In this document: positions 18,041-62,455 of the stretch, piece after piece
Position numbering within the stretch: the first letter of the stretch is position 1
How the letters are laid out: every line of letters starts with the position of its first letter
Source: Gemmatimonadaceae bacterium
Lineage (GTDB): Bacteria > Gemmatimonadota > Gemmatimonadetes > Gemmatimonadales > Gemmatimonadaceae
Assembly (NCBI GenBank): GCA_025930755.1
Contig: JAICOJ010000004.1
Coordinates: forward strand, 19,654-83,653
Direction: 5' to 3'
DNA: 64,000 nt
Translations under genes and position numbers: made by a program
Notes under the pieces: generated by a model
The model's input: the letters and a program-made list of their open reading frames with translations, nothing else
What the model was told of the DNA's origin: nothing
Database searches by the model: none

Positions 18041-18200
18041 GGGTCAGGGGTCAGGAGTCAGGAGTCAGGGGTCAGGAGTCAGGGGTCAGGGATGGAAAGG
18101 GGCCGCGGCGCTTCGCGCCTGCGGCCCACATCAGATGAGCGCGGCAGCTTCGCTGCCGCGCTTTGCCATCCCGACCCCTGACCCCTGACTCCTGACCCCT
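18041..18200. repeat. locus A: 7-nt-periodic (GGRGTCA) palindromic array with two internal hairpins
   Basis: Left arm GGGTCAG/GAGTCAG x7 (18041-18089); right inverted arm ACCCCTG/ACTCCTG (18174-18200); inner hairpins at ~18099-18127 and 18139-18161. Confidence 0.9.
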
Positions 18201-18258
18201 ATCGTCACCGGTTAGCTGACTGGAACCAAATCAGGGATCCCGAGGTACACCCCTTGCG

Positions 18259-18290
18259 TTACCTTATTAGTACCAATACGTATATTACTA
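18259..18290 (+). promoter_or_regulatory. AT-rich putative promoter with TAGTA-N13-TACTA inverted repeat
   Basis: TTACCT (18259-18264), 16-nt spacer, TATATT (18281-18286) in otherwise GC-rich DNA. Confidence 0.4.
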
Positions 18291-18312
18291 CGAAACACAC
18301 GGAGGGAGCCGG

Positions 18313-18588
18313 TTGCTCGCCTACCTGGACGCGCTGTGTGCCGCTTTGCTCGCGCGTGACACCGAGGAGATCGATCGCCTTGGCCGTCATCCACTTGCAT
18401 GCGCCCTGCCGCGGACGGTACGTGAGGAAGTCCTCGCGATTCGTCGCGTTGGACCCGGCTCCCTTCGCGCGCCCATAGAGACCCTTCGTCATTACCACCG
18501 CACGGCCCATCTGGCAGGAATCGCGCGCGACCCGGCTTCGGCTGGCGCGCAGACGGAGCTGCCACTTGCCGCGGGAGGAGCGGGCTAA
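18313..18588 (+). CDS. hypothetical small protein
   Basis: TTG start after a GGAGGGAG RBS; stop overlaps the next start. Confidence 0.5.
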   Translation: MLAYLDALCAALLARDTEEIDRLGRHPLACALPRTVREEVLAIRRVGPGSLRAPIETLRHYHRTAHLAGIARDPASAGAQTELPLAAGGAG

Positions 18589-18962
18589 TGGGTGTGCTTC
18601 GCCGCAAGCAGCGGACGACGGTTCGGCAGTCAGGCGCCGCCTCGGCGCTGAACGAGGTCACGCTTCGCCGCCTTTCCGACCAGGGCCTCAGCGAGACACC
18701 GGTCCCCGCTCGCGTCCTCGAGACGCCAAGCGGGCAGCGGTGGCTCGTCGTACTCATCGCCCGATTGGCTTCGGTGGATCCTGTCGGCGAAACGCGGGGA
18801 GCGCGGTTGATCGTCCGGGCAGAACCTTTGTTCGGTGGACAGGATCGCGCCCGCATCGTAACCGTCAAGGCCGCCACGCTGGATGAGATGGATGGCTCGG
18901 TTCTGCGCGATGCGCTGTTGCGCCGGCGAGGGAACCCGGCCAAACAGCAGCGGAGGGGATGA
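18588..18962 (+). CDS. hypothetical protein
   Basis: 124-aa ORF, start overlaps upstream stop; ends at a bidirectional terminator. Confidence 0.55.
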   Translation: MGVLRRKQRTTVRQSGAASALNEVTLRRLSDQGLSETPVPARVLETPSGQRWLVVLIARLASVDPVGETRGARLIVRAEPLFGGQDRARIVTVKAATLDEMDGSVLRDALLRRRGNPAKQQRRG

Positions 18963-18968
18963 AAAAAA

Positions 18969-18992
18969 TCGGCGGCCACGTGGCCGCCGATT
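18969..18992. terminator. bidirectional intrinsic terminator between convergent genes
   Basis: A-run + ATCGGCGGCCAC/GTGGCCGCCGAT + T-rich tract (ttcctttttat). Confidence 0.85.
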
Positions 18993-19004
18993 CCTTTTTA
19001 TCGA

Positions 19005-19256
19005 TCAGTCGCGTCGCTGGAGCAACGCCCGCGAGATCGCGGTGTTGTCTCTCGCGATCGCATACAGCTCTCTGAAGACCGTGGCTCGAGACGCTCCGCG
19101 CGCTTCCGCGATCACGGGGGGCTCGTGGCCTGCGCGACGCGAAGGGTCTGATCGGCGCTCCACAGCGAGAAACGCGTGGTGGAGGCCGCCTTCGGCGGTG
19201 TCGGCTTCGATCATGACGAAGCCTCCGGACGGTAGCTCGCGACTATACAGCAGCAC
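19005..19256 (-). CDS. hypothetical protein; stand-alone copy of the domain fused to the MBL hydrolase at 10609-11994
   Basis: VERRSDPSRRAGHEPPVIAEARGASRATVFRELYAIARDNTAISRALL versus VERRADPERQGVGEPPLIAEARGTSREAVLTELQALATDDAELARRLA. Confidence 0.65.
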   Translation of the reverse strand: MLLYSRELPSGGFVMIEADTAEGGLHHAFLAVERRSDPSRRAGHEPPVIAEARGASRATVFRELYAIARDNTAISRALLQRRD

Positions 19257-19312
19257 GGGTCATCCTTCATTGGATGGACGGGGCGCCCCACATCGGGTGC
19301 CGCTTACGCGCG

Positions 19313-19927
19313 CTAATATACGACGGGCGGCTCCAGGTAAAGCAAGGTGTTTTGCATCTCGGGCGGGGCGCCGCGGTCGGTCGCGCTGGCACTCACCGGC
19401 AGCTCCACGACCCCCTCCGCCGGCAAGACCCGCCGTACCGCAATCAAGCGGCGCCCGAACCAGGTTGGACGGGCCCGCGTGCCTCCAAAGCGGTCGAGCT
19501 TCACACGTTTTCCGGTGCTCGACGCGTGAATGATCGTATCGCCGCCGACGTAGACGGCGATGTGCTGCGCGCCCCGTCCACCAAAGAAGAACAGGAGGTC
19601 GCCGGGCTGGAGATCACCCGGTGGTGGCGCGTCGCCAACCGCTGCCTGCTCCTTTGCGGTGCGCGGCATCCGCACGCCATGCTGTGCGAAGATCCAACGC
19701 ACAAAACCCGAGCAATCGAATGCACGCGGAGTCGTTCCGCCGAGCACGTACCGCACGCCGAGGTATCGCTTGGCGGTGCGTACGACTTCCGCGCCGTGAA
19801 CGGGCGCGCGCCCCTCGATGGTGCGCATACCTGTCACCGCTGGCGTCTGCCGAGCTTGCGCCGATAGAGCCGGCCCCGTCAGCAGGGCCGCGCAGAGGAG
19901 GGCGAGTCGCGCGTTGATGGTTGTCAT
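19313..19927 (-). CDS. C40-family NlpC/P60 peptidase, secreted
   Basis: Signal peptide; FDCSGFVRWIFAQHGVRMPRTAKEQ, QPGDLLFFFGGRGAQHIAVYVGGDTIIHAS. Confidence 0.9.
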   Translation of the reverse strand: MTTINARLALLCAALLTGPALSAQARQTPAVTGMRTIEGRAPVHGAEVVRTAKRYLGVRYVLGGTTPRAFDCSGFVRWIFAQHGVRMPRTAKEQAAVGDAPPPGDLQPGDLLFFFGGRGAQHIAVYVGGDTIIHASSTGKRVKLDRFGGTRARPTWFGRRLIAVRRVLPAEGVVELPVSASATDRGAPPEMQNTLLYLEPPVVY

Positions 19928-20000
19928 CTTGGCGATGACGACCTAACGCCCGCGCGGAAACTCCCGAACGCCGCGCGAAGCACACTTCTCTCCCGAAGAG

Positions 20001-21047
20001 CTACCGAGGCGTCTTCCCTTTGCGGGGTTGGGCTTCCACGAGTGCTCGAATGGAGTTGCCCTTCTTCATCCCGCGAGCCCAGATGTCGCCGCGACGTCGA
20101 AGTCGGTCGGGAACGGTCTCGATCGTGAAATCGCGGGGGTCGAGCGCGTCGTCGACCTCATTCCAGTCGAGCGGGGTGGAGACGGTGGCGCCTGGTCGTG
20201 CGCGCACGGCGTAGGCCGCAGCCACCGTCTTGGCGCGAATGTTCTGGAGATAATCCACGTACACCGTTCCAGCCGGTCGCGCACTCACGGATCGCTCGAC
20301 GGTCGCGATCCTGGGCGCACGCGACGCGACTCGGGTTGCGATCAGCTGCGCAGCGAGCACGGCGGTCTCGTCGGAAACACCCGGGCGAAGGGGGATGACG
20401 ATGTGCATCCCGGACGAGCCCGATGTCTTCGCCACGGCCGTCAGCTTCAGGGCGTCGAGCTCCTCGTGCACCAGCTTCGCGACTTCGACGACGCGGGAAA
20501 ACGGCGCCTTTGGTCCAGGGTCGAGATCCAGAATGGTGAAGTCTGCCAGCTCCAGCTTCGGGACGCGCGAATGCCAAGGGTCGACGGAGATGGCGCCGAG
20601 CTGAATCGTGTAGAGGAGCGTCGCCAGATCTCCTCCGATGAGCCGGCGTTGTTGCTCTCCCTTCTCGTTGCGAATCGTCTCCGCGCGCACGGCCGGCGGT
20701 GCCTTGTCCGGAGCCTTCTGCTGGTAGAACGACTGGCCATCGATGCCATCCGGATATCGCTTGAGCACGAGCGGCCGGTCGCGCATCACGGAAAGGATGG
20801 CGTCTTCAACCCGAGCGTAAAACCGCATCACGTCGCCCTTCGTGATCCCGTCGCGCGGGAAAAACACCTTGCCCAGGCTCGATACGGCCAGCGATACGCC
20901 GCGGCCCAGCTCCAGTGTGCCGTCGCCTCGGTCGTGCTCGATCGCCTCCAGCTGCGCGACGACGGGTGCGGGCGAGGTCGATGCCGTTGCGCGCGTGCTT
21001 CGTGCAGGGGCAGCAGAAGGAGTCCGCTTCGTTCTCGCGCTCTTCAT
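20001..21047 (-). CDS. LigD polymerase-domain protein (NHEJ POL)
   Basis: LGKVFFPRDGITKGDVMRFY, LDLDPGPKAPF, KTSGSSGMHIVIPL. Confidence 0.9.
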   Translation of the reverse strand: MKSARTKRTPSAAPARSTRATASTSPAPVVAQLEAIEHDRGDGTLELGRGVSLAVSSLGKVFFPRDGITKGDVMRFYARVEDAILSVMRDRPLVLKRYPDGIDGQSFYQQKAPDKAPPAVRAETIRNEKGEQQRRLIGGDLATLLYTIQLGAISVDPWHSRVPKLELADFTILDLDPGPKAPFSRVVEVAKLVHEELDALKLTAVAKTSGSSGMHIVIPLRPGVSDETAVLAAQLIATRVASRAPRIATVERSVSARPAGTVYVDYLQNIRAKTVAAAYAVRARPGATVSTPLDWNEVDDALDPRDFTIETVPDRLRRRGDIWARGMKKGNSIRALVEAQPRKGKTPR

Positions 21048-22744
21048 CGCTTCGCGTGCTGCACGCTCTCCGGCTCTCTCCCCACATCGCGCGCGGGCTT
21101 GTCGTCACGGACACCAAGGAAGATCGGTTGGCGGAGCTTTCCGTCCGCCGTCCATTCATTGAACTTCACTTCGACGACGACCTCGGGCCGCGTCCAGTGA
21201 GCACGCTCGTTGGTCCGGGGTGGAGTCTCGAACGGGGGCGTCTTGCGCTCGAGGCGGGCGAGTCGCCGGTACATGTCCTTGAGTCCCGCGCGGGTGAATC
21301 CGCCGCCCGTGTGACCGACATAGATGAAACGGTCGCCCTCGAAGTAGCCAAGCAGAATGGCGCCGATGTGCTCGCGTGTATTCCGCGGCTCGGTCCACCC
21401 GCCGATCACGAACTCCTGACGGTGCTCGACCTTCAGCTTCAGCCAGGCCTTCGATCGGACGCCCGGATCGTATCGAGAGCTCGTGCGCTTCGCGATCACC
21501 CCTTCCCATCCGTCGCGCCGAACGCGCTCCAGCATCTCCTGTCCGTCGCCGGGAATCGACTCGCTGAGCCGAAGGCGGTGGGTGGTACGCCGGCGAAGCA
21601 CTCGCTCGAGGTGCTTGCGCCGCGTTGTCCAGGGTTCCTTTACCAGGACGTCCGGACCGTCGACGAGGATGTCGAAGAGAACGATCGCGGCCGGCTGGTT
21701 GTCGGCAAAGTGCTCGATGGCCAGCGGGTCCTTCACGTGCATGCGATCCTGTAGCGCCTGGAAGCGCGCGACCTCACCATCGACAACCGCGATGATCTCT
21801 CCGTCGACGACGAGCTCCCGCTCGGCCTTTCGGCCGAGCGTTCGAAGGGCTTCGGCGATTTCGGGAAACTGCTTCGTCTTGTCGTTGCCGTTGCGCGTGA
21901 CGAGGCGAACGGTGTCCTTCGTCACGAAGGCGAGCACGCGGATTCCATCGTATTTGGGCTCGAACGTCCACCCCTCCCCGTCGGGCACGGACGTCCCGAT
22001 GCTGGCATACATCGGCTCGAAACGCTCAGCGGCCCGCGAGGTCACCACACGCGCTGACGCCTTACGAGTGCTCGGCGGTGCCCGCCGGGCGGCGGTCGTC
22101 GACTTCCTGGCTTTTGCCGGACGTTTTTTCCCGGCCGCGATCTCTTCCATAGTCCGACCGGTCGTCACCGATGTAGTGGTTTCGGCCACGATGTCGATGT
22201 CGTCCCGCGCCTCGTCGTCGCGGTGCTTGATCAGTAGCCACTGTGGCTTGGAGGATCCCGCCTCGCGTCCACGCATGCGAACGAGCACCCACGATCCGCG
22301 CAGCCGCTCGCCCTGAAGAGTGAACTTGAGATCGCCGGAGCGATAGCCGCGCCGGATGGCCTTCTCATCATCACCATCGTCGGCCGCGTCTGCCCGATAG
22401 GTGCCGCGATCCCAGAGCATGACCGTACCGCCGCCGTATTCACCCTTGGGGATGGTGCCCTCGAAGGTGTTGTAGTCGATGGGATGATCCTCGACTTCCA
22501 TGGCGAGTCGCTTGATGCCCGGATCGAGGCTGGGGCCTTTGGGGACGGCCCAGCTCTTCATCACGCCATCGAGCTCGAGGCGCAGGTCGAAGTGGAGGTG
22601 GCTGGCGGCGTGCTTCTGGATGACGAAGCGCAGGGTTCCCTGGCGAGACGGCGCGCCGGCACCATGTCCCGCCGGCTCCGCGGTGCGGGAGAAGTCGCGC
22701 TTGCGACGGTACTCTGCCAGCGGTGCCGAGCGAGCGCGCGGCAC
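21044..22744 (-). CDS. ligD: LigD 3'-phosphoesterase + ATP-dependent DNA ligase (NHEJ)
   Basis: PE domain FVIQKHAASHLHFDLRLELDGVMKSWAVPKGP; ligase FEPKYDGIRVLAF, EGVIAKRTSSRYDPGVRSKAWLKLK; 4-bp overlap with the POL gene. Confidence 0.92.
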   Translation of the reverse strand: MPRARSAPLAEYRRKRDFSRTAEPAGHGAGAPSRQGTLRFVIQKHAASHLHFDLRLELDGVMKSWAVPKGPSLDPGIKRLAMEVEDHPIDYNTFEGTIPKGEYGGGTVMLWDRGTYRADAADDGDDEKAIRRGYRSGDLKFTLQGERLRGSWVLVRMRGREAGSSKPQWLLIKHRDDEARDDIDIVAETTTSVTTGRTMEEIAAGKKRPAKARKSTTAARRAPPSTRKASARVVTSRAAERFEPMYASIGTSVPDGEGWTFEPKYDGIRVLAFVTKDTVRLVTRNGNDKTKQFPEIAEALRTLGRKAERELVVDGEIIAVVDGEVARFQALQDRMHVKDPLAIEHFADNQPAAIVLFDILVDGPDVLVKEPWTTRRKHLERVLRRRTTHRLRLSESIPGDGQEMLERVRRDGWEGVIAKRTSSRYDPGVRSKAWLKLKVEHRQEFVIGGWTEPRNTREHIGAILLGYFEGDRFIYVGHTGGGFTRAGLKDMYRRLARLERKTPPFETPPRTNERAHWTRPEVVVEVKFNEWTADGKLRQPIFLGVRDDKPARDVGREPESVQHAKR

Positions 22745-22750
22745 GGCCCG

Positions 22751-23632
22751 TTAGGCGGAGCGGCGTGACTTGGGGGGCGTGCGCTCCTTCGAGGCGGCCG
22801 ACTTGCGGGGCGCGCGCACGGCTCCCGAGCGCGTCCCCTTGGCACCGGAGCGCGGCTTCTTTCCCTGCTCCAGGCTCTCGCGCAGGCGCGACATCAAGTC
22901 GAATACCTGCTCGTCGGCCGGCTCGGATTCCTGCATCGGCTCGAGGTCGGCCTTCTTGCCCTTGAGCTTCGCCTTGATGATGCGCATGAGGTTCGCGCGA
23001 TAGTCATCGGTGTATTTGTCGGGCGAGAACGGCTCGGCCAGGTTGCCGATGAGCTGCTCCGCCATCGTGAGCTCCTGCGGCTTCACGACGTCGGCGGCCG
23101 GGAAGGAGAACTCCTTGGTGTCGACGAGCTCGTTGGCGAAGCGCATGAGCTCGAGCACGAGCGCATCGCCGACGACCTTCACGGCGGCCAGATTCTGCTT
23201 CTGGCGGATGATGATCTTGCCGATGCCGACGGCGCCGGTGCGTCGCATGGCCTCACGAAGGAGTGCGTACGGACGTTCGCCGCCTTTCGAGGGCACGAGG
23301 TAATAGGGCGTCTCGAAGTAGCGTGGATCGATCTCGTCCTGCTTGACGAAGTCGAGGATGTCGATGGCGCGGGAGCCTTCGAGGGCGGCGCGCTCGAAGT
23401 CCTCATCGGTGAGCACGACGTACTTTCCCTTCGTATACTCGTATCCCTTGACGATCTCGCTCCACGGGACCGGCTGGCCATCTTCGGCGCACACCCGCTC
23501 GTACTTGACCGGTGAGAGGTCTTCGGCGTGGAGCATTCGGAACGAGATGCGATCTCCTCGAACGGCGGTGCGCAGCTCGACGGGAATGCTGACGAGTCCG
23601 AAGCTGATCGCTCCTTTCCAGATCGCCGCCAT
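22751..23632 (-). CDS. ku: Ku protein (NHEJ)
   Basis: MAAIWKGAISFGLVSIPVELRTAVRGDRISFRMLHAEDLSPVKYERVC... Confidence 0.93.
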   Translation of the reverse strand: MAAIWKGAISFGLVSIPVELRTAVRGDRISFRMLHAEDLSPVKYERVCAEDGQPVPWSEIVKGYEYTKGKYVVLTDEDFERAALEGSRAIDILDFVKQDEIDPRYFETPYYLVPSKGGERPYALLREAMRRTGAVGIGKIIIRQKQNLAAVKVVGDALVLELMRFANELVDTKEFSFPAADVVKPQELTMAEQLIGNLAEPFSPDKYTDDYRANLMRIIKAKLKGKKADLEPMQESEPADEQVFDLMSRLRESLEQGKKPRSGAKGTRSGAVRAPRKSAASKERTPPKSRRSA

Positions 23633-23742
23633 GACCTGCTCTCCGCGTTGAGGTTCGACAGGATCGCGATGTGAAAGAAGGCAAGAGCGGGGCCACCTGT
23701 GGAAAAGAACATTTGTGATCTGATTCAAGTGCCGGGAACGGA

Positions 23743-23770
23743 AAAGGCCCGGGCAAATTCCCGGGCCTTT
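23743..23770 (-). terminator. intrinsic terminator of the cold-shock gene
   Basis: AAAGGCCCGGG-CAAATT-CCCGGGCCTTT perfect stem-loop. Confidence 0.85.
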
Positions 23771-23798
23771 CCGCAGAAGGCGTTGTCCGAAGGCGAGA

Positions 23799-24005
23799 TC
23801 AGGCCTTCGTGACGTCCGATGCCTGCGGTCCCTTCTGTCCCTGAACGATCTCGAATTCGACGCGATCGCCCTCGGCCAGTGACTTGAAGCCTTCGGACTG
23901 GATCGCGCTGAAGTGGACGAACACGTCCGGACCTCCCTCGCGGGAGATGAATCCGTAACCCTTCGCGTCGTTGAACCACTTCACGGTGCCGGTGATGCGT
24001 GCCAT
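23799..24005 (-). CDS. cold-shock domain protein (CspA family)
   Basis: [68 protein letters not shown]. Confidence 0.97.
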
Positions 24006-24129
24006 GGTGCGCTTCCTCTTCCCCCACGGGGCTGACGGTGGTGCGTGGTCATTTTGGCTCCTGGTTGCGAGCGGCCGCGTGACCGAAAACAGGTGACGTC
24101 AAAGGTAAACACCTGAGACGCAAGCAAAA

Positions 24130-24160
24130 GGGGGCGGTGCGCAAAATCCGCTCCGCCCCC
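24130..24160 (-). terminator. putative terminator downstream of the zinc-ribbon gene
   Basis: GGGGGCGG...CCGCCCCC stem. Confidence 0.6.
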
Positions 24161-24196
24161 CTCATCGACCGTGAGACACCCTGTCAGGGTTGTCGG

Positions 24197-24406
24197 TCAT
24201 GCAGCCCCTGCGATGTACTTTGCGACGCGCCCGCACTTCGAGCAGCGCAGCGTGACGTGTGAGCGCGGCGGAGGCGGGATCTGTTGCGGGTCGCGCATGA
24301 TCTGCCCTGAACACGATGGGCACGACAATGGCGATCCGGTGCGGTCGTGTGAGATGAGCTGCAGGGCCTGCGCGGGGTTGTACGTCGCCGGACGGGGCTT
24401 TCGCAT
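24197..24406 (-). CDS. small zinc-ribbon protein
   Basis: MRKPRPATYNPAQALQLISHDRTGSPLSCPSCSGQIM...LRCSKCGRVAKYIAGAA; two CxxC pairs. Confidence 0.7.
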   Translation of the reverse strand: MRKPRPATYNPAQALQLISHDRTGSPLSCPSCSGQIMRDPQQIPPPPRSHVTLRCSKCGRVAKYIAGAA

Positions 24407-24480
24407 GGGACCTCCGTGGGTATACGACCAATCATTCCGGCGGAAGCGCGGGTTCCGGCCGAAACGATGCTGCGAGTAGC

Positions 24481-26064: not shown

Positions 26065-26071
26065 CCTGCGC

Positions 26072-27676: not shown

Positions 27677-27782
27677 GAACTGCGAACTGCGAACTGCGAA
27701 CTGAAACCCTCGGGAAGCTACCGCCGCCACTGGTAACCTCCCGAGGGTTTTAGTTCGCAGTTCGCAGTTCGCAGTTCGCAGC
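27677..27782. repeat. locus B: (GAACTGC)n palindrome with central terminator-like hairpin between convergent stops
   Basis: GAACTGC x3 + GAACTGA (27677-27704); AAACCCTCGGGA...TCCCGAGGGTTT; inverted arm GTTCGCA x4 to 27782. Confidence 0.93.
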
Positions 27783-27783
27783 C

Positions 27784-28014
27784 TTACCCGACGTAGACGA
27801 CGTCCCCCTCGGGGTCTATCCCCATCTCCTGAATGTGGCCGCAGACGCCGCACGTCATCGTGGCGTGCCAGGCTTCGTTGAACTCCTTCTGGTGCTCCTT
27901 CGCGGCCTCCTTCACCGTAACCTTCTTGTAGCTGTACTCACGGCAATGCTCGCAAGCGTGACCGCGCGCAATGCGCTCGGCGCGTTCTCGCGAGATCTTC
28001 TTGATCTTCCGCAA
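27784..28014 (-). CDS. small Cys-rich (zinc-ribbon-like) protein
   Basis: HACEHCREYS...MTCGVCGHIQEMG. Confidence 0.65.
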   Translation of the reverse strand: MRKIKKISRERAERIARGHACEHCREYSYKKVTVKEAAKEHQKEFNEAWHATMTCGVCGHIQEMGIDPEGDVVYVG

Positions 28015-28015
28015 G

Positions 28016-29101: not shown

Positions 29102-29146
29102 GCCTACACCTCGAAGAGGGGGGATCTCATTCTACGCGCCTGACGA

Positions 29147-32140: not shown

Positions 32141-32182
32141 TGCGAGCGGAGCTCCGGTTTCGGAAAAAGGTGGTCATCGAAT

Positions 32183-32335
32183 GAGGAACGAGGGACGAGG
32201 AACGAGGAAGTTGATTGAATGGCTTCCTCAGGGGAAGCCTATCCGGGGGCAACCCTTTTCCCCCGTTGCACTTCCTCGGTCCTCGCCGCTCGTTCCCTCG
32301 TTGTCCCCCGCAATCCGCATTCCGCTTTCCGCCTT
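32183..32335. repeat. locus C: GAGGAAC heptads with inverted arm, followed by a second heptad array CCGCNTT
   Basis: GAGGAAC GAGGGAC GAGGAAC GAGGAAG (32183-32210); inverted CTTCCTC...GTTCCCTC (~32271-32304); CCGCAAT CCGCATT CCGCTTT CCGCCTT (32308-32335). Confidence 0.85.
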
Positions 32336-33234: not shown

Positions 33235-33316
33235 TCGGATTGCGGATGGCGGACGGCGGATTGAGGACGACGTGCTACTAATCGGTCACAATCAGCAATG
33301 CGCACTCCGCAATTCG
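33235..33316. repeat. locus D: GCGGATT-type heptads with degenerate inverted arm
   Basis: TCGGATT GCGGATG GCGGACG GCGGATT GAGGACG (33235-33269); opposite strand of ~33280-33316 reads ATTGCGG AGTGCGC ATTGCTG ATTGTGA. Confidence 0.75.
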
Positions 33317-40151: not shown

Positions 40152-40336
40152 GATTCAGAGTTCAGACTTCCGATTGCCGGCTGTCTGCATCCACCCACGG
40201 AGCAATCTGGTCCTTCCCGCGGGATCCGCGTCTCTCCTGTACCTGGATGCCGGCCTCGCACAATCGCGACGGGGCTCAAAGCAGCTACGGGGAGCCGCAC
40301 TGGCTCCCCGTTTGGTTGCTGAATTTTGAAATCGAT
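40152..40336. repeat. locus E: ATTCAGA-type heptads and GGGGAGCC hairpin between convergent genes
   Basis: GATTCAG AGTTCAG ACTTCCG ATTGCCG (40152-40179); GGGGAGCC-cgcac.t-GGCTCCCC (40289-40309); GCTGAATTTTGAAAT near the right edge. Confidence 0.7.
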
Positions 40337-44092: not shown

Positions 44093-44283
44093 GTCTGCCT
44101 CCTGAGGGTATGTGGTGCGCGACCTCGAAAGTCACGCGGACTGCGCTCGTTCAGTGTGCGGCTGCGCGCTGCACGACATGTGCCTCGTGCGCCGTGCACA
44201 CTGCATCCGCGACGCTGCTATACAACACCCGGGGAGTTCCGTCAAGGCGGGATTGTTTCTCGGTACGGCAAAGACGTCGGATT

Positions 44284-44374
44284 TCAGAATAGAGAATACA
44301 GAATTCAGAAACGGACACGGGGAGCCAAGGTCGGCTCCCCGCGGGTTCTAGCTGAATGTATTCCGAATTCCGTC
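44284..44374. repeat. locus G: heptads TCAGAAT-type with GGGGAGCC hairpin
   Basis: TCAGAAT AGAGAAT ACAGAAT TCAGAAA (44284-44311); GGGGAGCC/GGCTCCCC (44319-44340); right arm TGAATGT ATTCCGA ATTCCGT. Confidence 0.85.
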
Positions 44375-49483: not shown

Positions 49484-49618
49484 GGTCGAGGTCCTCGAGG
49501 TCGTCGAGGTGATCGAGGAGAGCTTCCGCACCTCGACTCCCTCGAGGACTCGGTCGACAGATCGACCCTCGAACCCTCGCCACCACCCACGGATTCCCGG
49601 ACCTCGACGACCCCCGCG
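49484..49618. repeat. locus H: 9-nt-periodic TCGAGGTNN array with partial inverted arm
   Basis: GGTCGAGGT CCTCGAGGT CGTCGAGGT GATCGAGGA (49484-49519); ACCTCGACGACC near the mqnD stop. Confidence 0.8.
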
Positions 49619-51377: not shown

Positions 51378-51650
51378 ATGACCGATCCCCAGCTCCGTCT
51401 TTTTCCGGGTGTTGGCTCCAAACGGATGGGCGAGTTACGACGTGGGGCCACGTCGTGGGATGTATTTCTGGAGTGCGAAGGCGACCGCGCGAATGGAGCA
51501 ACCCGCGGTCGCATTCATTTTGTGTCGGGCGGCCGCACCCGCACGAGCGCCTGGATCTTCCTGGAGTGGACCACGCGGGACGTGGAGGAGCGCTTCCACG
51601 ACTTTGCCGCTGGTGAGCTCTGGGGATTAGTCGAAGGTATCGACGACTGA
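51378..51650 (+). CDS. hypothetical protein (90 aa)
   Basis: MTDPQLRLFPGVGSKRMGELRRGATSWDVFLECEGDRANGATRGRIHFVSGGRTRTSAWIFLEW. Confidence 0.6.
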   Translation: MTDPQLRLFPGVGSKRMGELRRGATSWDVFLECEGDRANGATRGRIHFVSGGRTRTSAWIFLEWTTRDVEERFHDFAAGELWGLVEGIDD

Positions 51651-51747
51651 GGAAGAACGAGGAACGAAGAACGAGGAAGGGGCTCGTCAGCTCCGCGACA
51701 CCGGAGCCCCGCGCAGCCGCTTCCTCGTTCCTCGTTCCTCGTTCCTG
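51650..51747. repeat. locus I: (CGAGGAA)n palindrome with GGGGCTC/GAGCCCC hairpin between convergent stops
   Basis: AGGAAGA ACGAGGA ACGAAGA ACGAGGA (51650-51677); CTTCCTC GTTCCTC GTTCCTC GTTCCTG (51720-51747). Confidence 0.92.
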
Positions 51748-51748
51748 T

Positions 51749-53693: not shown

Positions 53694-53732
53694 GGTGGTC
53701 GAGATGTCGAGGATGTCCAGGGGGTCGAGGGA
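53694..53732. repeat. locus J: degenerate GTCGAGGAT repeat abutting the glnA stop
   Basis: ggtcgagat gtcgaggat gtccagggg gtcgaggga, GTC spacing 8/9/9. Confidence 0.6.
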
Positions 53733-53744
53733 GAGGGCCGCGCC

Positions 53745-54995: not shown

Positions 54996-56160
54996 CCCGG
55001 ACGCCGAGCGCCGCCATCGCGACGGCGACGACGACGCCTGCCGCCGCCAGCCATACCGGGTGCCGATATTCGCCGACGATACGGACGCGGTATGCCGCGA
55101 TCAACATTGCTCCGAGCGAAATGGGCAGGATCAGTCCATTGATCGCTCCGACCAGCACCAGCACGGCGACCGGCCGTCCGATCACGAGAAAAAGCGCCGC
55201 CGAGACCGCGATGAACGCAATGGTCGCGCGTCCCGGGGCGCGATCGATGTGCCGGCTGACCGAGCGAAGAAAGGACACCGAGGTGTACGCCGATCCGACG
55301 ACGGACGTAATCGCCGCCGCCCACATCACGACGCCGAAGATCCGCTGGCCGATGGCGCCCGCGGCGTGCTGAAACGCGGAGGCGGGCGGGTTGGCGGGAT
55401 CGAGGGTCGCACCGTGTGCGACGACGCCGAGGGTCGCGAGAAACAGCAGGATGCGCATCAGCGACGCCACGCCGATGCCTAACGTTGCGGCGCGGGTGAC
55501 GCGCCCGAGGGATTCGGTCCCGTGGATGCCGGCATCGATGAGCCGGTGGCCGCCGGCGAAGGTGATGTAGCCGCCGACGGTGCCACCGACGATCGTCACG
55601 ATCGAAAGCGCATCGATCTCCAGCGGCGCGACGGTACGAATGATCGCTTCGCCCAGCGGCGGCCGCGCGCTGATCACGACGTAGATGGTGAGCGCGATCA
55701 TGACGAGTCCGAGGGCCTGCGCGAACCGGTCCATGATACGCCCGGCCTCGCGTGCCACGAAGATGCCAATGGCGATCGCCGCGCTCACCGCGGCCCCCGT
55801 CTTCACCTCGATGCCGGCGAGCGCGTTGAGACCCAGTCCCGTCCCGGCGATGTTGCCAATGTTGAACGCAAGCCCGCCTAACGCCACCAGCCCGGCGAGC
55901 CCGTAGCCAAGCCCGGGCAGCACGTCGTTCGCCACGTCCTGCGCTCGGCGTCTCGCCACCGCCAGCACGCGCCAGATGTTGAGCTGGGCGCCGAGGTCGA
56001 ACAGGATCGAGATGAGAATCGCGAACCCGAAGCTCGCGCCGAGCTGCGCCGTGAACACCGCCGTCTGCGTGAGGAAGCCGGGACCGATGGCGGATGTCGC
56101 CATCAGGAACGCGGCGCCGATGGTGGCGGTGGTGATCGCGCCGCGACGAGGATCGGTCAT
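54973..56160 (-). CDS. NRAMP-family divalent metal transporter
   Basis: Polytopic; GPGFLTQTAVFTAQLGASFGFAILISILFDLGAQLNIWRVLAVAR; tail overlaps the convergent gene. Confidence 0.78.
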   Translation of the reverse strand: MTDPRRGAITTATIGAAFLMATSAIGPGFLTQTAVFTAQLGASFGFAILISILFDLGAQLNIWRVLAVARRRAQDVANDVLPGLGYGLAGLVALGGLAFNIGNIAGTGLGLNALAGIEVKTGAAVSAAIAIGIFVAREAGRIMDRFAQALGLVMIALTIYVVISARPPLGEAIIRTVAPLEIDALSIVTIVGGTVGGYITFAGGHRLIDAGIHGTESLGRVTRAATLGIGVASLMRILLFLATLGVVAHGATLDPANPPASAFQHAAGAIGQRIFGVVMWAAAITSVVGSAYTSVSFLRSVSRHIDRAPGRATIAFIAVSAALFLVIGRPVAVLVLVGAINGLILPISLGAMLIAAYRVRIVGEYRHPVWLAAAGVVVAVAMAALGVRAILSVDL

Positions 56161-56210
56161 GGCGCTCTATACGACACGAAGGGCCTTCCGATTGGAAGGC
56201 CCTTCGTCAG

Positions 56211-57743
56211 CTACGGCTTGGTCTTCTGGTTCTTTGCGCCAGGTGGCCGTATCGCCGGCTTGCCTTGCGTCTTCTCGGCCGGCTTGCCGGTGGCTTTGTC
56301 CTCGGTCTTCTCTTCGGATTTCGCCTCCGACTTCTCGTCCCTGGCCTCTGACTTCGCCTCGGGCTTGGTCTCCGGCGCGGCCTCGGGCTCGGCCGCCGGC
56401 TCCTCCTTCTTCTGCACCGGCTTCGCTTCCGGCTTCGATACGGGTGGCTCGGCCTGGCGAGGCGGCTCGACAGTTACCGCCGGCTTGTCGGCCTTTTGCT
56501 CGACCTTGTCCGCCTTGTGCTCGGACTTCTCGGCCTTTTGCTCCTGCTTTGGCTCCTGGCGAGTCTCCTGCACTTCCTGCTTTTGCAGCTGGCGCGCCTC
56601 TTTCGCCTCCTGCTTGTCTTCCTGGCGGACCTGCTTCTCCTCCTGGCGGATCTGCTTGTCCTCCCGACGCTCCTGTTTGGCCTCGATCTTCTCGGCCTGC
56701 TTATCGGGTTGCGGCTGCTGCGGCTGGCCATTGGCCGGCGTCTCGATACGGGGAGTCCGCCGTGGATCGTTGGGCTTTTCGTTCTCGATGCCGCGACCCT
56801 TCACGTTCGGATCGTCCGTGTGGCCGTACGCGTTGCCGTTTCCGCGCTTTTCCTTCTCCTTCACGTCCTTGGGCGCGGGCGTGTCGGTGCGTGGGCCAGG
56901 ATGATCGATGACGACGGGTCCATGCTCTGGCCGCGTCGGCTCGCTGACCCGATCGATCGGTGCGCGAACGGGTGTGGTCTCGGGAAACCGACGGCGAACG
57001 CGCTGGCCGTTGTTGATGGCGACGATCGAATCCGGACGCGCCGGCGCCGTCCTCACGATCATCCCGCCCGAGGGCGCAGGGACCGGGCACCAGGCGCGGT
57101 CGGCAACTTCCTCGGGAACCTCGTACACGGTGCGGTTCGCGCAGTAGATGCGAACGGTGCGATAAGGATCGCTCGCGTACGTCGCCGCTAGCGCGTAGGC
57201 ATCTTCCGCCCACGACTCGTCGATCACCGACGGAAGGAATGCGCGCGAGATGGCACGCATCGTCACGTGCGGATTCGTGCCTCGATAGGCGGCGGGGCCG
57301 AGCACGCGGCGCATGTAGCTGGGGTGGAACGCCTCATCGGGTAGCCGAAGGGGCTCGTCGGACGCGATCGCGTAGACCCAGCGCGCTGGCAGCGCGGTGC
57401 CGGACGGGCGCCCGTAATACATCGTCGACTGCACCTTCCACGACACCGGGACCCAGTTCAGCCCCGCGAGCATCCAAGTGCGCTGATGCGCGTAGGACGG
57501 CGCGAGCAGCGCGACTCCGCGGTCGGGCACGATCTCGAACAGCGCGACGTACGACGGGCGGTTCGTCTGCACGACGAGCTGGCCGCGAACCGGGCGCGCG
57601 AGCGTGATCTCGAGCGGCTCAATGCGCGGTGGCGGCGGTGGCGGCGGTGCGGGACGGTGGACGACGTACACGGTGCCCGACGAGCACGCGGCGAGCACGA
57701 TGGACGCGACGAGCGTTGCGAGGCGGCGAAGTGGAGTGCGCAT
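56211..57743 (-). CDS. DUF4384-like lipoprotein with long Lys/Glu/Gln/Arg charged C-terminal helix
   Basis: Lipobox LAACSSG; RPVRGQLVVQTNRPSYVALFEIVPDRGVALLAPS; RREDKQIRQEEKQVRQEDKQEAKEARQLQKQEVQETRQEPKQ... Confidence 0.65.
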   Translation of the reverse strand: MRTPLRRLATLVASIVLAACSSGTVYVVHRPAPPPPPPPRIEPLEITLARPVRGQLVVQTNRPSYVALFEIVPDRGVALLAPSYAHQRTWMLAGLNWVPVSWKVQSTMYYGRPSGTALPARWVYAIASDEPLRLPDEAFHPSYMRRVLGPAAYRGTNPHVTMRAISRAFLPSVIDESWAEDAYALAATYASDPYRTVRIYCANRTVYEVPEEVADRAWCPVPAPSGGMIVRTAPARPDSIVAINNGQRVRRRFPETTPVRAPIDRVSEPTRPEHGPVVIDHPGPRTDTPAPKDVKEKEKRGNGNAYGHTDDPNVKGRGIENEKPNDPRRTPRIETPANGQPQQPQPDKQAEKIEAKQERREDKQIRQEEKQVRQEDKQEAKEARQLQKQEVQETRQEPKQEQKAEKSEHKADKVEQKADKPAVTVEPPRQAEPPVSKPEAKPVQKKEEPAAEPEAAPETKPEAKSEARDEKSEAKSEEKTEDKATGKPAEKTQGKPAIRPPGAKNQKTKP

Positions 57744-57780
57744 GAGGCGGGTCCTTGCCGGAAGCGGCAGAGACGTCGGG

Positions 57781-57808
57781 AATCAGAATTCAGATGTCGG
57801 AATTCAGA
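57781..57808. repeat. locus K: single-arm ATTCAGA heptad array in a divergent intergenic region
   Basis: AATCAGA ATTCAGA TGTCGGA ATTCAGA. Confidence 0.75.
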
Positions 57809-57974
57809 GGGCGCGATGACCAGCCTGCGCCCCTTGGTTGACGCACGCCGGGTCAGTCGGGAAACGGGCGTGGCGTTTGTTCGGGGCGGAACTTCTTACA
57901 CACGGCCCGTGGCTCGGCGACGAACCCGGGCCTACATTTGGCCCCCCCTGCAACCACTCACGAGCGAGGATCCC

Positions 57975-58439
57975 ATGGCCAATCCGCCCAAGGGCTACCA
58001 CACCGTCACGCCGGGCATCACCGTCAGCGACGCGGCGAAGGCGATCGAGTTCTACAAGGACGCGTTCGGCGCGGAGGAGCTCGACCGCATGGAAGGGCCG
58101 GACGGCTCCATCATGCACGCGGAGATCCGCATCGGGGACTCGACCATCATGCTCGGCAGCGAGAATCCCATGTGGGGAATGAAGTCGCCGCTGACGCTCG
58201 GTGGGGTCCACGGGTCGCTTCACGTGTATGTCGATGACGCTGACGCGGCGTTCGCGCGGGCGGTGGATGCGGGGTGCGACGTCGCGCAACCGCTCGAAGA
58301 CGTGTTCTGGGGTGACCGGTACGGCAAAGTCACCGACCCGTTCGGCCACCAGTGGGGCATCGCAACGCGGGTAAAGGAGTTGAGCAGGGAGGAGATGCGG
58401 AAAGCCGCCGAAGCGTGGATGCAGACGATGGCTCAATAG
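57975..58439 (+). CDS. VOC/glyoxalase-like (PhnB-type) protein
   Basis: YHTVTPGITVSDAAKAIEFYKDAFGAEELDRMEGPDGSIMHAEIRIGDSTIML...DPFGHQWGIATR. Confidence 0.9.
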   Translation: MANPPKGYHTVTPGITVSDAAKAIEFYKDAFGAEELDRMEGPDGSIMHAEIRIGDSTIMLGSENPMWGMKSPLTLGGVHGSLHVYVDDADAAFARAVDAGCDVAQPLEDVFWGDRYGKVTDPFGHQWGIATRVKELSREEMRKAAEAWMQTMAQ

Positions 58440-58651
58440 CCGTCGCACTGTGGCGGTTGATCAACGACCTGTCGCGCAGGCTCCCCGAGGAGTGTTGCCC
58501 ACACGCAGCCAGCGCGACGGAAGTCGTTCGAGGGGCGCGAGTTAACACTATACCACACGTGGCCCGCCGGTTGCGCTTGCCCCGCGCGACCGGCGCATCT
58601 CCCGGCCATGTCGTCCCTCCGCACCGACCATCCGCATCCCACGCCACGGAC

Positions 58652-59257
58652 ATGTTCGAAATCGTTCGGCAGGACTTGGAGCGCTGTGTCCGGGTCAACC
58701 AAACAGGTGCCAGGAACCTCTCGGCGTATCTCCGCGAGCTGTTCAATCCAGGAACGCAGGCCATTCTGATCCACCGCTTCGGGGTGTGGTCGGACGGGAT
58801 CCGCGTTGCGCCGCTGCGCTACCTGCTGCGGGTCGTGCATTTCTTCGTGCAGCACGTGGTTGCCTGGCGGGTCGGGATCTACATCCCGATCAAGGCGGAC
58901 ATTGGTCCTGGCATCGCGATCCACACCTGGGGCGGGGGCGTCTTCCTTCCTTCGTGCAGGATCGGCCGGAACCTGACCATCGTCGGTGGCGGGGTGCTCT
59001 TCGACTACGACACGCTCGAGATCGGCGAGGACGTGACGGTCGGCGCGGGCACGAAGAGCACCGGGCGGATCCGCATTGGCAATCGTGTAACCACCGCTCC
59101 GAACTCCGTCGTCATCGAGGACGTGCCTGACGACAGTCTCGTCTTCGGCAATCCCGGCCGCATCGTTCGCAAGCTGTCCGCGAAGCGCAAGCTGGCGAAA
59201 GTCGGCACCGGGCCGGTCGCCGAGTCCGTGAGCAGTCCATCGCTCGCGGCCTTCTAG
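58652..59257 (+). CDS. serine O-acetyltransferase-like (CysE-type hexapeptide) protein
   Basis: IYIPIKADIGPGIAIHTWGGGVFLPSCRIGRNLTIVGGGVLFDYDTLEIGEDVTVGAGTKSTGRIRIGNRVTTAPNSVV. Confidence 0.8.
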   Translation: MFEIVRQDLERCVRVNQTGARNLSAYLRELFNPGTQAILIHRFGVWSDGIRVAPLRYLLRVVHFFVQHVVAWRVGIYIPIKADIGPGIAIHTWGGGVFLPSCRIGRNLTIVGGGVLFDYDTLEIGEDVTVGAGTKSTGRIRIGNRVTTAPNSVVIEDVPDDSLVFGNPGRIVRKLSAKRKLAKVGTGPVAESVSSPSLAAF

Positions 59258-59289
59258 GCCATTCTCCCTAACGAGACGCGCGGCGCGCC

Positions 59290-60453
59290 GTGGATTTCGC
59301 GCTGAGCGCGGAGCAGATCGAGCTCCGCGACAACGTTCTCGACTTCGCCCGGCGTGGGCTCGGCGGCGAGCCGGAGGGGAACGCTCCCGCATCGGTCGGG
59401 GGCTTTCGACGCGATCTCTGGGAGCGCTGCGGGGAGTTCGGCATCCTCGGCCTGCCGGTTCCTGGCGAGTACGGAGGCAGCGGTCACGACATGGTCACCA
59501 CGACCGTGGCGATGGAAGCGCTCGGTGAGGGGTGTCACGATCATGGGCTGCTTTTCTCGATGCACGCGCACATGTGGGCGGTCGTCACCCCGATCATCGC
59601 GTTCGGAACGCCGGAGCAGCGTGAGCGCTATCTGCCGCGCCTCGTCGATGGCTCGTGGGTCGCGGCGCATGGCATCAGTGAGCCGGGCTCTGGCTCCGAC
59701 GCGTACTCGATGCGCGCGCGTGCGATCAAGGACGGCGACGACTACATCCTGAACGGAACGAAGACGTTCGTGACGAACGCGCCAGTCGGCGACTTGTTCG
59801 TCGTCTTCGCGACGGTGAAGCCAGAGCGGGGCATGTGGGGCGTCACGGCATTTCTGATCGAGAAGGGAACCCCCGGGCTCTCGGTCTCCCGGCCCTTCAA
59901 GAAGCTCGGTCTCACCACGTCACCAATGGGCGAGGTGGTGCTCGACGATTGTCGCATCCCGGTTGCCAACCGCCTCGGGAAGGAGGGTCAGGGTGCGACG
60001 ATCTTCAACCACTCCATGGGGTGGGAGCGCAGCTGCATCCTCGCGAGCCAGGTCGGACGGATGCAGCAGCAGCTCGACGCATGTGTCCGCTATGCGAAAG
60101 AGCGCGAGCAGTTCGGGAAGCCGATCGGAAGCTTCCAGCTCGTTGCGGCGAAGATCGCCGACATGAAGGTACGGCTGGAGACATCGCGACTGCTTCTGTA
60201 TCGCGCCGCCTGGCAGCTCTCGAGAGCCGCCGAGGGCGGCGCGATGGAGGCGGCGATGGCCAAGCTCTACATCAGCGAGTCGGCCGTGGCCTCGGCGCTC
60301 GACGCGGTGCAGCTGCACGGCGGCTACGGCTACATGCAGGATTTTCACGTCGAGCAGCAACTGCGCGATTCCATCGGCGGCACCCTGTACTCGGGCACGT
60401 CGGAGATTCAGCGAATGCTGATCGCGCGCCATCTTGGACTCAGCCCCGTCTGA
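59290..60453 (+). CDS. acyl-CoA-dehydrogenase-family flavoenzyme (IVD/prolyl-PCP-dehydrogenase-like active site)
   Basis: GISEPGSGSDAYSMRARA, FNHSMGWERSCILASQVGRMQQ, LHGGYGYMQDFHVEQQLRDSIGGTLYSGTSEIQRMLIARHLG. Confidence 0.9.
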   Translation: MDFALSAEQIELRDNVLDFARRGLGGEPEGNAPASVGGFRRDLWERCGEFGILGLPVPGEYGGSGHDMVTTTVAMEALGEGCHDHGLLFSMHAHMWAVVTPIIAFGTPEQRERYLPRLVDGSWVAAHGISEPGSGSDAYSMRARAIKDGDDYILNGTKTFVTNAPVGDLFVVFATVKPERGMWGVTAFLIEKGTPGLSVSRPFKKLGLTTSPMGEVVLDDCRIPVANRLGKEGQGATIFNHSMGWERSCILASQVGRMQQQLDACVRYAKEREQFGKPIGSFQLVAAKIADMKVRLETSRLLLYRAAWQLSRAAEGGAMEAAMAKLYISESAVASALDAVQLHGGYGYMQDFHVEQQLRDSIGGTLYSGTSEIQRMLIARHLGLSPV

Positions 60454-60457
60454 CGCC

Positions 60458-62053
60458 ATGAACTATCTCCTCTGGCATGCGCCGGCGCAGAGCGCGCGCC
60501 TCTTCCCCGATCGGCCGGCGGTGCAGGATGCCACCACCACCTTCACGCACCGTGAGCTCCACGAGCTCAGCAACGGCGTGGCCGTGCTGCTCGCCGCTCG
60601 GGGCCTCTCGCGAGGCGAGCGCGTCGGCATGTGGATGCCCAAGCAGGCCCGCTCCGTCGCGGTCATGCTGGGCGCGTCGAAGTGCGGCGCGATCTACGTG
60701 CCGGTGGATCCGCAGGCGCCCGTCGAGCGTGCCGCGTTCATCCTCGGGAATGCCGACATCAGCGTGCTCGTCACGTCGCGACGCCTCCTGGCATCGCTGT
60801 CGCAGCACATGGGGACCTTCGCCTCGTTGCGCGCGATCGTCGTCGTCGATGAAAAGGACGGGGAGCTGGCACACACGCCGGTGCCGACGTTTGGCTGGGG
60901 GGCGATCGTCCCGACCTCCGAACCGCCCACGGTGTCGAATGCCGTCGACAGCGATCCGGCGTACATGCTGTACACATCCGGCTCGACGGGAACGCCGAAG
61001 GGCGTGGTGATCAGCCACCTCAACGCCCTCACCTTCATCGAGTGGACGATCGCGACGTTTCGCATCCAGCCGGAGGATCGGCTGTCGGGGCATGCCCCAC
61101 TGCACTTCGATCTCTCCGTGTTCGACATCTACGCCGCGCTCGGGACCGGCGCCTGTGTGGTGATGGTCCCCGATCGCATCGCACCTTTCCCGGCCGAGTT
61201 CGCGAAATGGATCGAAGAGCAGAAGATCACGGTCTCGTACATGGTGCCGTCCGCGTTCATCCGCTTGCTGAAGCATGGCGAGCTCGAGCGGTTCAGCTAT
61301 GCGTCGCTGCGCACGATTCTCTTCGCCGGCGAGGTGTTCCCGGTGAAGCATCTGAAGGAGGTGATGCCGCACTTCCCGAACGCCAGCTGGTTCAACCTCT
61401 ACGGTCCGACGGAGACCAACGTCTGCACGTGGACGCCCGTCCCGAAGCCGCTCGTGCAGGAAACCGAGCTGTCGATCGGCCGGTCGTGCGAGAACTTCGA
61501 CTGCTTCGCGCTCACCAGCGACGGTCGGAAGGCGCGGCCGGGCGAGGAAGGGGAGCTCGTCGTCCGCGGTCCGGGCGTGATGCTCGGCTACTGGAAGCTT
61601 CCCGAGCGCACGGCGAAGAATCTGACGCCGAATCCCCTGCACAAGGACTTCACCGATCTCATCTACAGGACCGGCGATCTCGTGCGCGTGCTCGACGACG
61701 GCATCTCGTTCCAGTACATCGCCCGACTCGACCACATGGTGAAAACGCGCGGGTACCGCGTCGAGCTCGAGGAGATCGAGCACGTGCTGCACGCGAACAC
61801 GCGCATCCGGAACGCCGCGGTGGTGGCGATTCCGGATGACGAGGTGGGCGCGCGTCTTCGCGCGGCGGTCGTCGTCGAAGGAGGCAATGGTCTCTCGCAA
61901 CAGGAGCTCGCCAGCCACTGCGCGACAAAGCTGCCGAGCTACGCGATTCCGGAGCTGTTCGTTTTCATGCCCGAGCTGCCGACGACATCGACCGGAAAGG
62001 TGGATCGACGCAGTCTCGCCGAATCACTCGGCCAATATTCGGCGGTGGGTTAA
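60458..62053 (+). CDS. stand-alone amino-acid-type adenylation enzyme (AMP-dependent ligase)
   Basis: A3 YMLYTSGSTGTPKGVVISH, A4 HFDLSVFDIYAAL, A5 FNLYGPTETNVCTW, A8 RLDHMVKTRGYRVELEEIE, A10 TSTGKVDRRSL. Confidence 0.9.
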   Translation: MNYLLWHAPAQSARLFPDRPAVQDATTTFTHRELHELSNGVAVLLAARGLSRGERVGMWMPKQARSVAVMLGASKCGAIYVPVDPQAPVERAAFILGNADISVLVTSRRLLASLSQHMGTFASLRAIVVVDEKDGELAHTPVPTFGWGAIVPTSEPPTVSNAVDSDPAYMLYTSGSTGTPKGVVISHLNALTFIEWTIATFRIQPEDRLSGHAPLHFDLSVFDIYAALGTGACVVMVPDRIAPFPAEFAKWIEEQKITVSYMVPSAFIRLLKHGELERFSYASLRTILFAGEVFPVKHLKEVMPHFPNASWFNLYGPTETNVCTWTPVPKPLVQETELSIGRSCENFDCFALTSDGRKARPGEEGELVVRGPGVMLGYWKLPERTAKNLTPNPLHKDFTDLIYRTGDLVRVLDDGISFQYIARLDHMVKTRGYRVELEEIEHVLHANTRIRNAAVVAIPDDEVGARLRAAVVVEGGNGLSQQELASHCATKLPSYAIPELFVFMPELPTTSTGKVDRRSLAESLGQYSAVG

Positions 62054-62131
62054 CGGGATTGCGCACTGTGCGAGGGGAGTTGCAGCTTCAGCGCGCGGCT
62101 CGCCCCTGTTCTCCCACCGACTCGTCCCAAC

Positions 62132-62383
62132 ATGCTACGGAATGACCTCACGAAGTTCATTCAGGAGAACCTTCTCCAGAAGGATCCGACGCCGATCGGC
62201 CCCGAGGACTCCCTGATCGATAGCGGGATCATCAATTCCATGGGTCTGATCCGGCTCGTCAGCTTCATCGAGACTCGGACCGGGGTGCGCATTCCGGACG
62301 CGATGATCACTCCGGACAATTTCGAGACGGTGACCGCGATCGAGCGGACCATCGACGAGGTTCGGCACCAGCGGGGAGTCTAA
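62132..62383 (+). CDS. acyl/peptidyl carrier protein
   Basis: 83 aa; LIDSGIINSMGLIRLVSFIETRTGVRIPDAMITPDNFETVTAIERTID. Confidence 0.88.
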   Translation: MLRNDLTKFIQENLLQKDPTPIGPEDSLIDSGIINSMGLIRLVSFIETRTGVRIPDAMITPDNFETVTAIERTIDEVRHQRGV

Positions 62384-62455
62384 CTGCGACTGCGAACTGC
62401 GAACTGCGAAGACGGCGCTTTTATTCGCAGCTCGCAGTTCGCAGTTCGCAGTTGC
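62384..62455. repeat. locus L: (CTGCGAA)n palindrome abutting the carrier-protein stop
   Basis: CTGCGA CTGCGAA CTGCGAA CTGCGAA (62384-62410); TTCGCAG CTCGCAG TTCGCAG TTCGCAG TTGC (62424-62455). Confidence 0.92.

Follow-up and report, generated by a model that had tools for sequence, protein, structure and literature searches.

We examined a window of 64,000 nucleotides (nt) from a Gemmatimonadaceae bacterium (genome G000, contig C78, positions 19654-83653) in which tandem arrays of 7-nt units stand next to stop codons, and found these arrays to be members of a genome-wide set: hundreds of long heptad-repeat hairpins lie between the genes of this organism. They are built from a purine-rich 5′ arm of heptad units, a core that varies and in many cases forms a GC hairpin, and a 3′ arm repeating the 5′ arm in inverted form. 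They are intergenic and placed close to gene 3′ ends; within the genus their sites are inherited while each species has its own dialect of repeat words, and the main words are connected by single-base steps. With roughly even confidence, we read them as intergenic hairpin elements, mainly at gene 3′ ends, whose arms evolve in concert and which are predicted to have a 3′-end role. Although bacterial heptamer repeats were noticed long ago, there is no agreement on their origin or function. Because the same gene boundaries carry different words and periods within one genus, site, structure and word become separable, and the elements let one ask, as in a natural experiment, if the hairpin is under selection, if words are copied from locus to locus, and what makes 7 nt the preferred length. 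Such a view would also account for the lineage-specific look of intergenic repeat words.

Heptad palindromes at gene ends

G000 (4.27 Mb, 275 contigs) was compared with G001, a member of the same genus (81% complete; about 80-85% DNA identity), and with G003, from the same family and a different genus (91% complete). Relatives recovered through the Lhr helicase nearly all carry the label Gemmatimonadota. The sampled sequence comprised 593 kb, 689 kb and 275 kb, respectively. Some contigs were picked for holding repeat hits and densities are thus upper estimates, a bias that affects within-gap tests and synteny-matched gap pairs less. Gene ends were taken from our own simple hexamer-score gene-calling script, and a strong heptad array was defined by a lag-7 score of at least 11.

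An autocorrelation-type scan bore out the suggestion of an earlier note on this DNA that a lag-7 excess, with a weaker one at lag 9, pervades the intergenic sequence. Lag-7 arrays numbered 90 in intergenic against 8 in coding sequence of G000, 88 against 14 in G001 and 71 against 6 in G003. At lags 4, 5, 6, 8 and 10-13 the intergenic sequence of G000 held 0-3 arrays each (lag 14 is a multiple of 7), and lag-9 arrays numbered 15 in G000, 46 in G001 and none in G003. Within the window, segments scoring at least 12 were found at lag 7 (11) and lag 9 (4), with 0 at lags 4-6, 8 and 10-13. Three tandem copies of GAACTGC matched 145 times in G000, compared with 0 for the reversed-pattern control. Relative to dinucleotide shuffles, RNA folding gave z-scores of -14.9 at 27677, -10.9 at 18041, -8.6 at 51651, -8.5 at 62384, -6.0 at 32179, -4.7 at 44284 and -4.3 at 33235. 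Chance is excluded as an origin, given the lag spectrum, the outcome for the reversed pattern and the folding of shuffled sequences. Many contigs (C115, C122, C64 and C252 of G003, and several contig ends of G000 and G001) start in or near heptad arrays or the twin-hairpin elements described below, so short-read assemblies probably break at both and long arrays are probably under-represented.

The two-armed structure, likewise claimed from the window, holds for most arrays. Neighbouring arrays are inverted with respect to each other in 33/36 cases in G000, 33/35 in G001 and 14/28 in G003, and in the long intergenic palindromes of G000 self-matches at lag 7 cover 62% of arm positions, whereas the remaining lags up to 13 give 19-31%. 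In such palindromes the purine-rich strand supplies the 5′ arm in 57 of 60 (G000), 95 of 98 (G001) and 20 of 23 (G003); ordinary hairpins share this purine-first lean in G000 (37:12) and G001 (41:7), though not among the nine of G003. Arm length depends on the word, being nearly fixed for GAGGAAC (24 nt, interquartile range 24-26) and reaching 73 nt for GAACTGC in G000, and the longest slippage-like runs extend up to 115 nt (G003). Mirroring of the arms unit by unit is striking at single loci (L018:1099 and the G001 orthologue of 51651); as a general rule it was dropped, since own arms beat swapped ones only slightly.

Placement relative to genes is equally marked. The distance from an array span to a gene 3′ end in G000 has a median of 5 nt, and 39 of 64 distances are at most 8 nt; random placement of the spans within their own gaps gave a mean of 22 and a maximum of 32 over 2000 trials. 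The corresponding counts were 30 in G001 (null mean 19, maximum 28) and 15 in G003 (null mean 7, maximum 15). Convergent gaps are occupied most often (46% in G000, 32% in G001), followed by co-directional (14-18% and 18-19%) and divergent ones (10% and 7%). In line with the association with stop codons first noticed in the window, the stops quoted there are real gene ends in our calls (18040, 27676, 51650 and 62383 on the forward strand; 27784, 51749, 49619 and 32344 on the reverse). At L197:5406 the array extends into the gene end, and the stop codon arises within a unit. One GAGGAAC palindrome (L020:2972-3114 in G000, L146 in G001) occupies a divergent gap; its core is 84% identical between the species, contains a TATAAT-like stretch and may, judging from these features, carry a promoter. 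Most other cores are less conserved.

Sites inherited, words exchanged

Comparison of orthologous sites, which the earlier note had proposed, separated the site from its word. Among 82 gaps with both flanking genes matched between G000 and G001, arrays were present in both species in 17, in G000 only in 9, in G001 only in 3 and in neither in 53 (Fisher odds ratio 33, p=1.4e-8); with gene arrangement and gap length accounted for by stratification, the odds ratio was 27 (p=1e-5). At about 12 of the 17 shared sites, read by eye, the word differs. GAACTGC in G000 corresponds to GGATTGC in G001 at L025:14136, with a further such pair at L019:5941; GAGGAAC corresponds to GGATTGC at L025:13265, L022:17015 and L197:5406, and GGAGTCA to GGCCAGG at L197:1649. 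Even the period is exchanged, a heptad array facing a 9-nt array at L017:507, L025:15537 and L022:13180. Despite these differences, 15/17 and 14/17 of the shared sites fold at z<-2 in the two species. The dialects are visible in exact matches as well, which for G000, G001 and G003 numbered 145, 0 and 80 for GAACTGC, 124, 3 and 0 for GGAACGA, and 1, 7 and 110 for GGATTGC. At the convergent, array-empty G001 site orthologous to 27677, a plain GC hairpin stands in place. The core at L025:14136 is 73% identical across species (about the top 1% of random core pairs), with both arms different, and at other sites the core is unrecognisable; sites thus seem to undergo change in place as well as replacement.

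The words themselves proved to be related, contrary to the initial claim that unrelated units share a 7-nt spacing. When 297 arrays were read on the purine-rich strand in one register, a common grammar emerged on the 5′-arm strand, G-R-A-N-T-S-M, with position frequencies of G 0.94, R 0.94, A 0.73, N, T 0.71, S 0.92 and M 0.92. We then joined two heptamers in a word network if they were adjacent within one array and one base apart. GAACTGC, GGATTGC, GGAACGA, GGAGTCA, GGGGCCA and GGAGTGA form one component with 73% of unit copies; when families were recoded at random in 300 trials, with their internal variation kept, the share averaged 30% and never exceeded 51%. GAATTCA, GACGTCA, GGGCCAA and GGAATCG remain, at present sampling, in small separate components. 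Because the words share strand and register and single-base steps link the six main ones, the 7-nt period may have been inherited and not re-imposed on unrelated words. As the earlier note had argued, no single conserved-sequence repeat stands behind the arrays. GGATTGC is sporadic as a word: of 249 genomes in the phylum, 16 have three tandem copies of it. Heptamers of other bacteria rank variably under the grammar (GGGAATC in the top 9.6%, GGGGAYT 4.5-7.3%, TAACTGA 29%, Helicobacter pylori GTGATTA 85%), and on those ranks a grammar common to different phyla is too weak to claim.

Some of the elements are dispersed as recognisable copies. The type at 18041 has the form AAAGG - hairpin - CTCATCWGATGAG - hairpin - CCTTT, and a strict pattern for its core finds 22 loci in G000 and 16 in G001, but has no match in 39 further relatives; its copies in G001 are 85-93% identical over about 140 bp. 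The twin hairpins come in a limited number of stems that can replace one another, and one twin-hairpin core was found with either GGAGTCA or GGGCCA arms. The core at 18092-18172 of the window and the loci like it are genus-specific, and their stems look as if shuffled as cassettes. The ATTCAGA type has homologous dispersed copies in G001, with an ordered series of unit variants. Part of the set thus consists of copies of dispersed elements.

Origin, role and competing explanations

Taken together, these patterns suggest a mode of evolution in which arms would lengthen by whole-unit slippage, so that the 7-nt period is kept whatever the word, until coding sequence is reached. The adjacency to stop codons would follow, since arms growing outward by whole units would be halted there. 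New words would come from point mutation and would spread among loci by copying, through gene conversion, transposition of whole elements or both, giving rise to a species dialect; the presence of one word at unlinked loci indicates that such copying is needed. The period would thus be inherited through unit replication and not imposed by a reader. When transcribed, an element is predicted to form a very stable stem-loop right past the stop codon, which would set or protect the mRNA 3′ end and separate neighbouring genes. Three consecutive T follow the inner hairpin in 6/19 cases in G000 and 8/41 in G001. A canonical U-run terminator is ruled out by the T-run counts for the elements as a whole, although single elements such as 27677 qualify. 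In Escherichia coli, stems of the repetitive extragenic palindrome (REP) type are associated with 3′-end protection or with trimming back to the stem. By analogy, protection of the 3′ end or trimming to a stem fits better than textbook termination.

Several observations weigh against hairpin elements with concertedly evolving arms and a 3′-end role. Arms match the partner at their own locus hardly better than same-family arms of other loci (0.904 against 0.881), several swapped sites retain neither arms nor core and resemble replacement more than in-place change, 7-10% of divergent gaps are occupied in G000 and G001, and some elements are found between co-directional genes that probably form an operon. 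A TTTT at the outer 3′ end was seen in only 4 of 60 elements in G000 and 4 of 98 in G001; with the U-run mostly missing, most elements are not textbook terminators. Between genera, 0 sites were shared in 14 comparable gaps, few of which were occupied, so any function would not be tied to particular genes over long times.

The first competing explanation, which we hold to be possible at clearly lower confidence, is that several families of short mobile palindromes, resembling REPs, bacterial interspersed mosaic elements (BIMEs) or miniature inverted-repeat transposable elements, insert near gene 3′ ends and favour existing hairpins, shared sites being hot spots hit by different families in the two species. 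It would suit the dispersal of the 18041-type core and of the ATTCAGA type described above, the nearly constant 24 nt of GAGGAAC arms, and the three GAGGAAC/GGATTGC swaps without a common core. Arms nevertheless change independently of the core, as GGAGTCA or GGGCCA arms on one core and the variable GAACTGC arm length indicate. The arms are inverted repeats, and in the orthologous gaps inspected we noticed no clean empty site and no target-site duplication, nor was a clean empty/occupied pair established. A Y1 transposase (PF01797) occurs once in G000 (C64:10760-11086), was not found in G001 or G003, and is present in relatives without these words; an origin through a REP-associated tyrosine transposase (RAYT) is not supported, as this gene does not track the arrays.

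A dedicated process that rewrites words genome-wide with the sites kept appears unlikely to us. Under it, both arms and many unlinked loci would switch jointly from one word to another (GGATTGC/GAACTGC, GAGGAAC/GGATTGC, even 7-nt/9-nt), and each species would thereby acquire its dialect. We consider it improbable, more so still, that the arrays are neutral microsatellites without function, which polymerase slippage produces preferentially with 7-nt units (a proposal of Mrazek and colleagues cited in PMC4692102 and PMC4679880) and which persist only where no gene is harmed. Coding sequence is indeed nearly free of arrays, slippage-like runs reach 115 nt in G003, and in many genomes heptamers are reported to outnumber other classes of longer repeats (PMC4679880, PMC4692102); slippage alone, however, yields no inverted pairs (33/36 here), no identical words at many unlinked loci, no purine-first 5′ arm and no depletion from divergent gaps. 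Very improbable is a protein or RNA that reads the 7-nt phase, with selection on the period and a drifting word: a single period dominates in three genomes and some elements have degenerate positions at fixed places (GAANNCA, NNTGAGG), but such a reader could not accept the 9-nt arrays that replace 7-nt arrays at three orthologous sites, related words leave the period in no need of a separate explanation, and the dedicated reader that the earlier note had envisaged was neither needed nor found.

Known heptamer repeats and the loci of the window

The kind of element is known from Xanthomonas, in which 183-186 dispersed GGGAATC arrays, 89-93% of them intergenic, include 70-75 inverted pairs (Rehm et al. 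2015, PMC4692102). Those arrays lie 28 nt from the upstream and 160 nt from the downstream open reading frame, are under-represented in divergent gaps, and mostly have the same flanking genes in two species while varying in length and sequence (PMC4692102). Our elements resemble them in the 7-nt units, the dispersed intergenic location, the inverted pairs, the proximity to the upstream gene and the scarcity in divergent gaps. In contrast to the one word family of Xanthomonas, they have several dialects per genome, change word and period at orthologous sites and carry a core hairpin in many pairs. The GGG tract of Xanthomonas is also absent from the main words GAACTGC, GAGGAAC and GGATTGC, being present in GGGGTCA and GGGCCA. 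Three things are new here: how many dialects one genome holds, the exchange of word and period at sites that are inherited, and the kinship of the words.

The short tandemly repeated repetitive (STRR) sequences of heterocystous cyanobacteria, initially named as the nearest analogue, are a fair comparison, being dispersed and mostly outside genes, with GGAYTGG in the top 4.5-7.3% under the grammar; the Xanthomonas arrays, which also form inverted pairs, are nearer (PMC4692102). The STRR/GGGGAYT heptamer arrays of Nostoc are 68% intergenic with few inverted pairs (PMC4692102), whereas nearly all neighbouring pairs are inverted here. An excess of 7-nt units, a location near the upstream gene end and frequent inverted pairs, the features described for arrays of the Xanthomonas and Nostoc type, are all found in our set. 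TAACTGA repeats of Beggiatoaceae and others likewise form many intergenic heptamer sets per genome, yet as direct repeats mostly just upstream of start codons (MacGregor 2015, PMC4679880), in place of inverted pairs at stop codons. REPs are defined as palindromes of 20-40 bp with a GTAG or CGTC tetranucleotide tag at one end (PMC3733652). Like REPs and BIMEs, our elements are extragenic palindromes downstream of genes, and the 18041 core, an inverted hairpin pair, is BIME-like; they differ in much longer stems, heptad arms and the lack of tracking with a RAYT (Y1) transposase. By inspection, no GTAG/CGTC tag was found at the hairpin foot; the ends carry heptads, and the twin core ends in AAAGG/CCTTT with CTCATC between its hairpins. 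No Rfam RNA family matched the window, covariance models at the gathering score giving 0 matches.

The loci of the window are listed in the table. Its heptad arms are strong arrays as defined above, apart from the imperfect one at 32268-32303. The arrays picked out by the earlier note are present, except that 40152 and 57781 are weak: neither has a lag-7 segment scoring 11 or forms a hairpin (z -0.17 and -0.25). The second of these is probably a decayed copy of the 44266 element, since the exact outer motif of the latter stands at 57765. Of the two 9-nt loci, 49484 holds up moderately (z -2.6), and 53694 is degenerate in G000 and a clear nonad array in its G001 orthologue.

Table. Heptad and nonad features of the window (window coordinates)
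Feature	Position	Strand	Remarks
5′ heptad arm, GGRGTCA x7	18041-18091	+	Starts at stop codon of gene ending 18040; array segment 18039-18091
Twin-hairpin core, HP1 - CATCAGATGAG - HP2	18092-18172	.	Dispersed AAAGG..CATCWGATG..CCTTT type
3′ arm, inverted copy (GACCCCT) of 18041 5′ arm	18173-18200	-	
5′ heptad arm, GAACTGC x3.9	27677-27703	+	First base past stop codon of TPR-HD gene
Core hairpin, AAACCCTCGGGA..TCCCGAGGGTTTT	27704-27751	.	Resembles bidirectional intrinsic terminator
3′ arm, inverted GAACTGC x4.3	27752-27781	-	2 nt short of opposite-strand stop at 27784
5′ heptad arm, GAGGAAC x4.4	32179-32209	+	
3′ arm of 32179 GAGGAAC palindrome	32268-32303	-	Imperfect; ends approximate
Single CCGCAAT/CCGCATT arm	32308-32332	-	Remnant of older GGATTGC element; kept in G001 orthologue
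5′ heptad arm, CGGATTG/CGGATGG	33236-33261	+	Inverted arm near 33304-33316; strong segment 33236-33260
Weak ATTCAGA-like stretch	40152-40176	+	No hairpin; doubtful member
5′ heptad arm, ATTCAGA (GAATTCA) element	44286-44310	+	Dispersed copies in G001
Other parts of 44286 element	44266 to about 44373		Outer motif CGGCAAAGACGTC at 44266; core formed by GC hairpin; inverted arm reaching about 44373
9-nt array TCGAGGTNN, partial inverted arms	49486-49518	+	Not present in G001 orthologous gap
5′ heptad arm, GAGGAAC	51655-51678	+	Begins 4 nt past stop at 51650
3′ arm, inverted GAGGAAC	51721-51746	-	2 nt short of opposite-strand stop 51749; both arms of G001 orthologue carry NNTGAGG heptads
Degenerate 9-nt array	53698-53730	+	Past stop codon; G001 orthologue has clear GGGGTCGAA/GGGATCGAA nonads
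Weak ATTCAGA-like stretch	57781-57810	+	No hairpin; outer motif CGGCAGAGACGTC at 57765
5′ heptad arm, GAACTGC	62389-62410	+	5 nt past stop at 62383 (phosphopantetheine-attachment protein gene)
3′ arm, inverted GAACTGC	62425-62453	-	Forms hairpin with almost no core with the 62389 arm

Nonad units also occur elsewhere. A long 9-nt array of AAGGCGCTG at L019:3079-3167 in G000 fills almost all of the gap between two genes and is not present in the G001 gap (L034). Around 15540-15640 of L027, and among the weak palindromes, CACAGAGGC/ACGCAGAGG nonad palindromes, for example ACCGCAGAGGGCGCGGAGGACGCAG, lie in similar gaps; these nonad palindromes are a second, 9-nt type of periodic palindrome.

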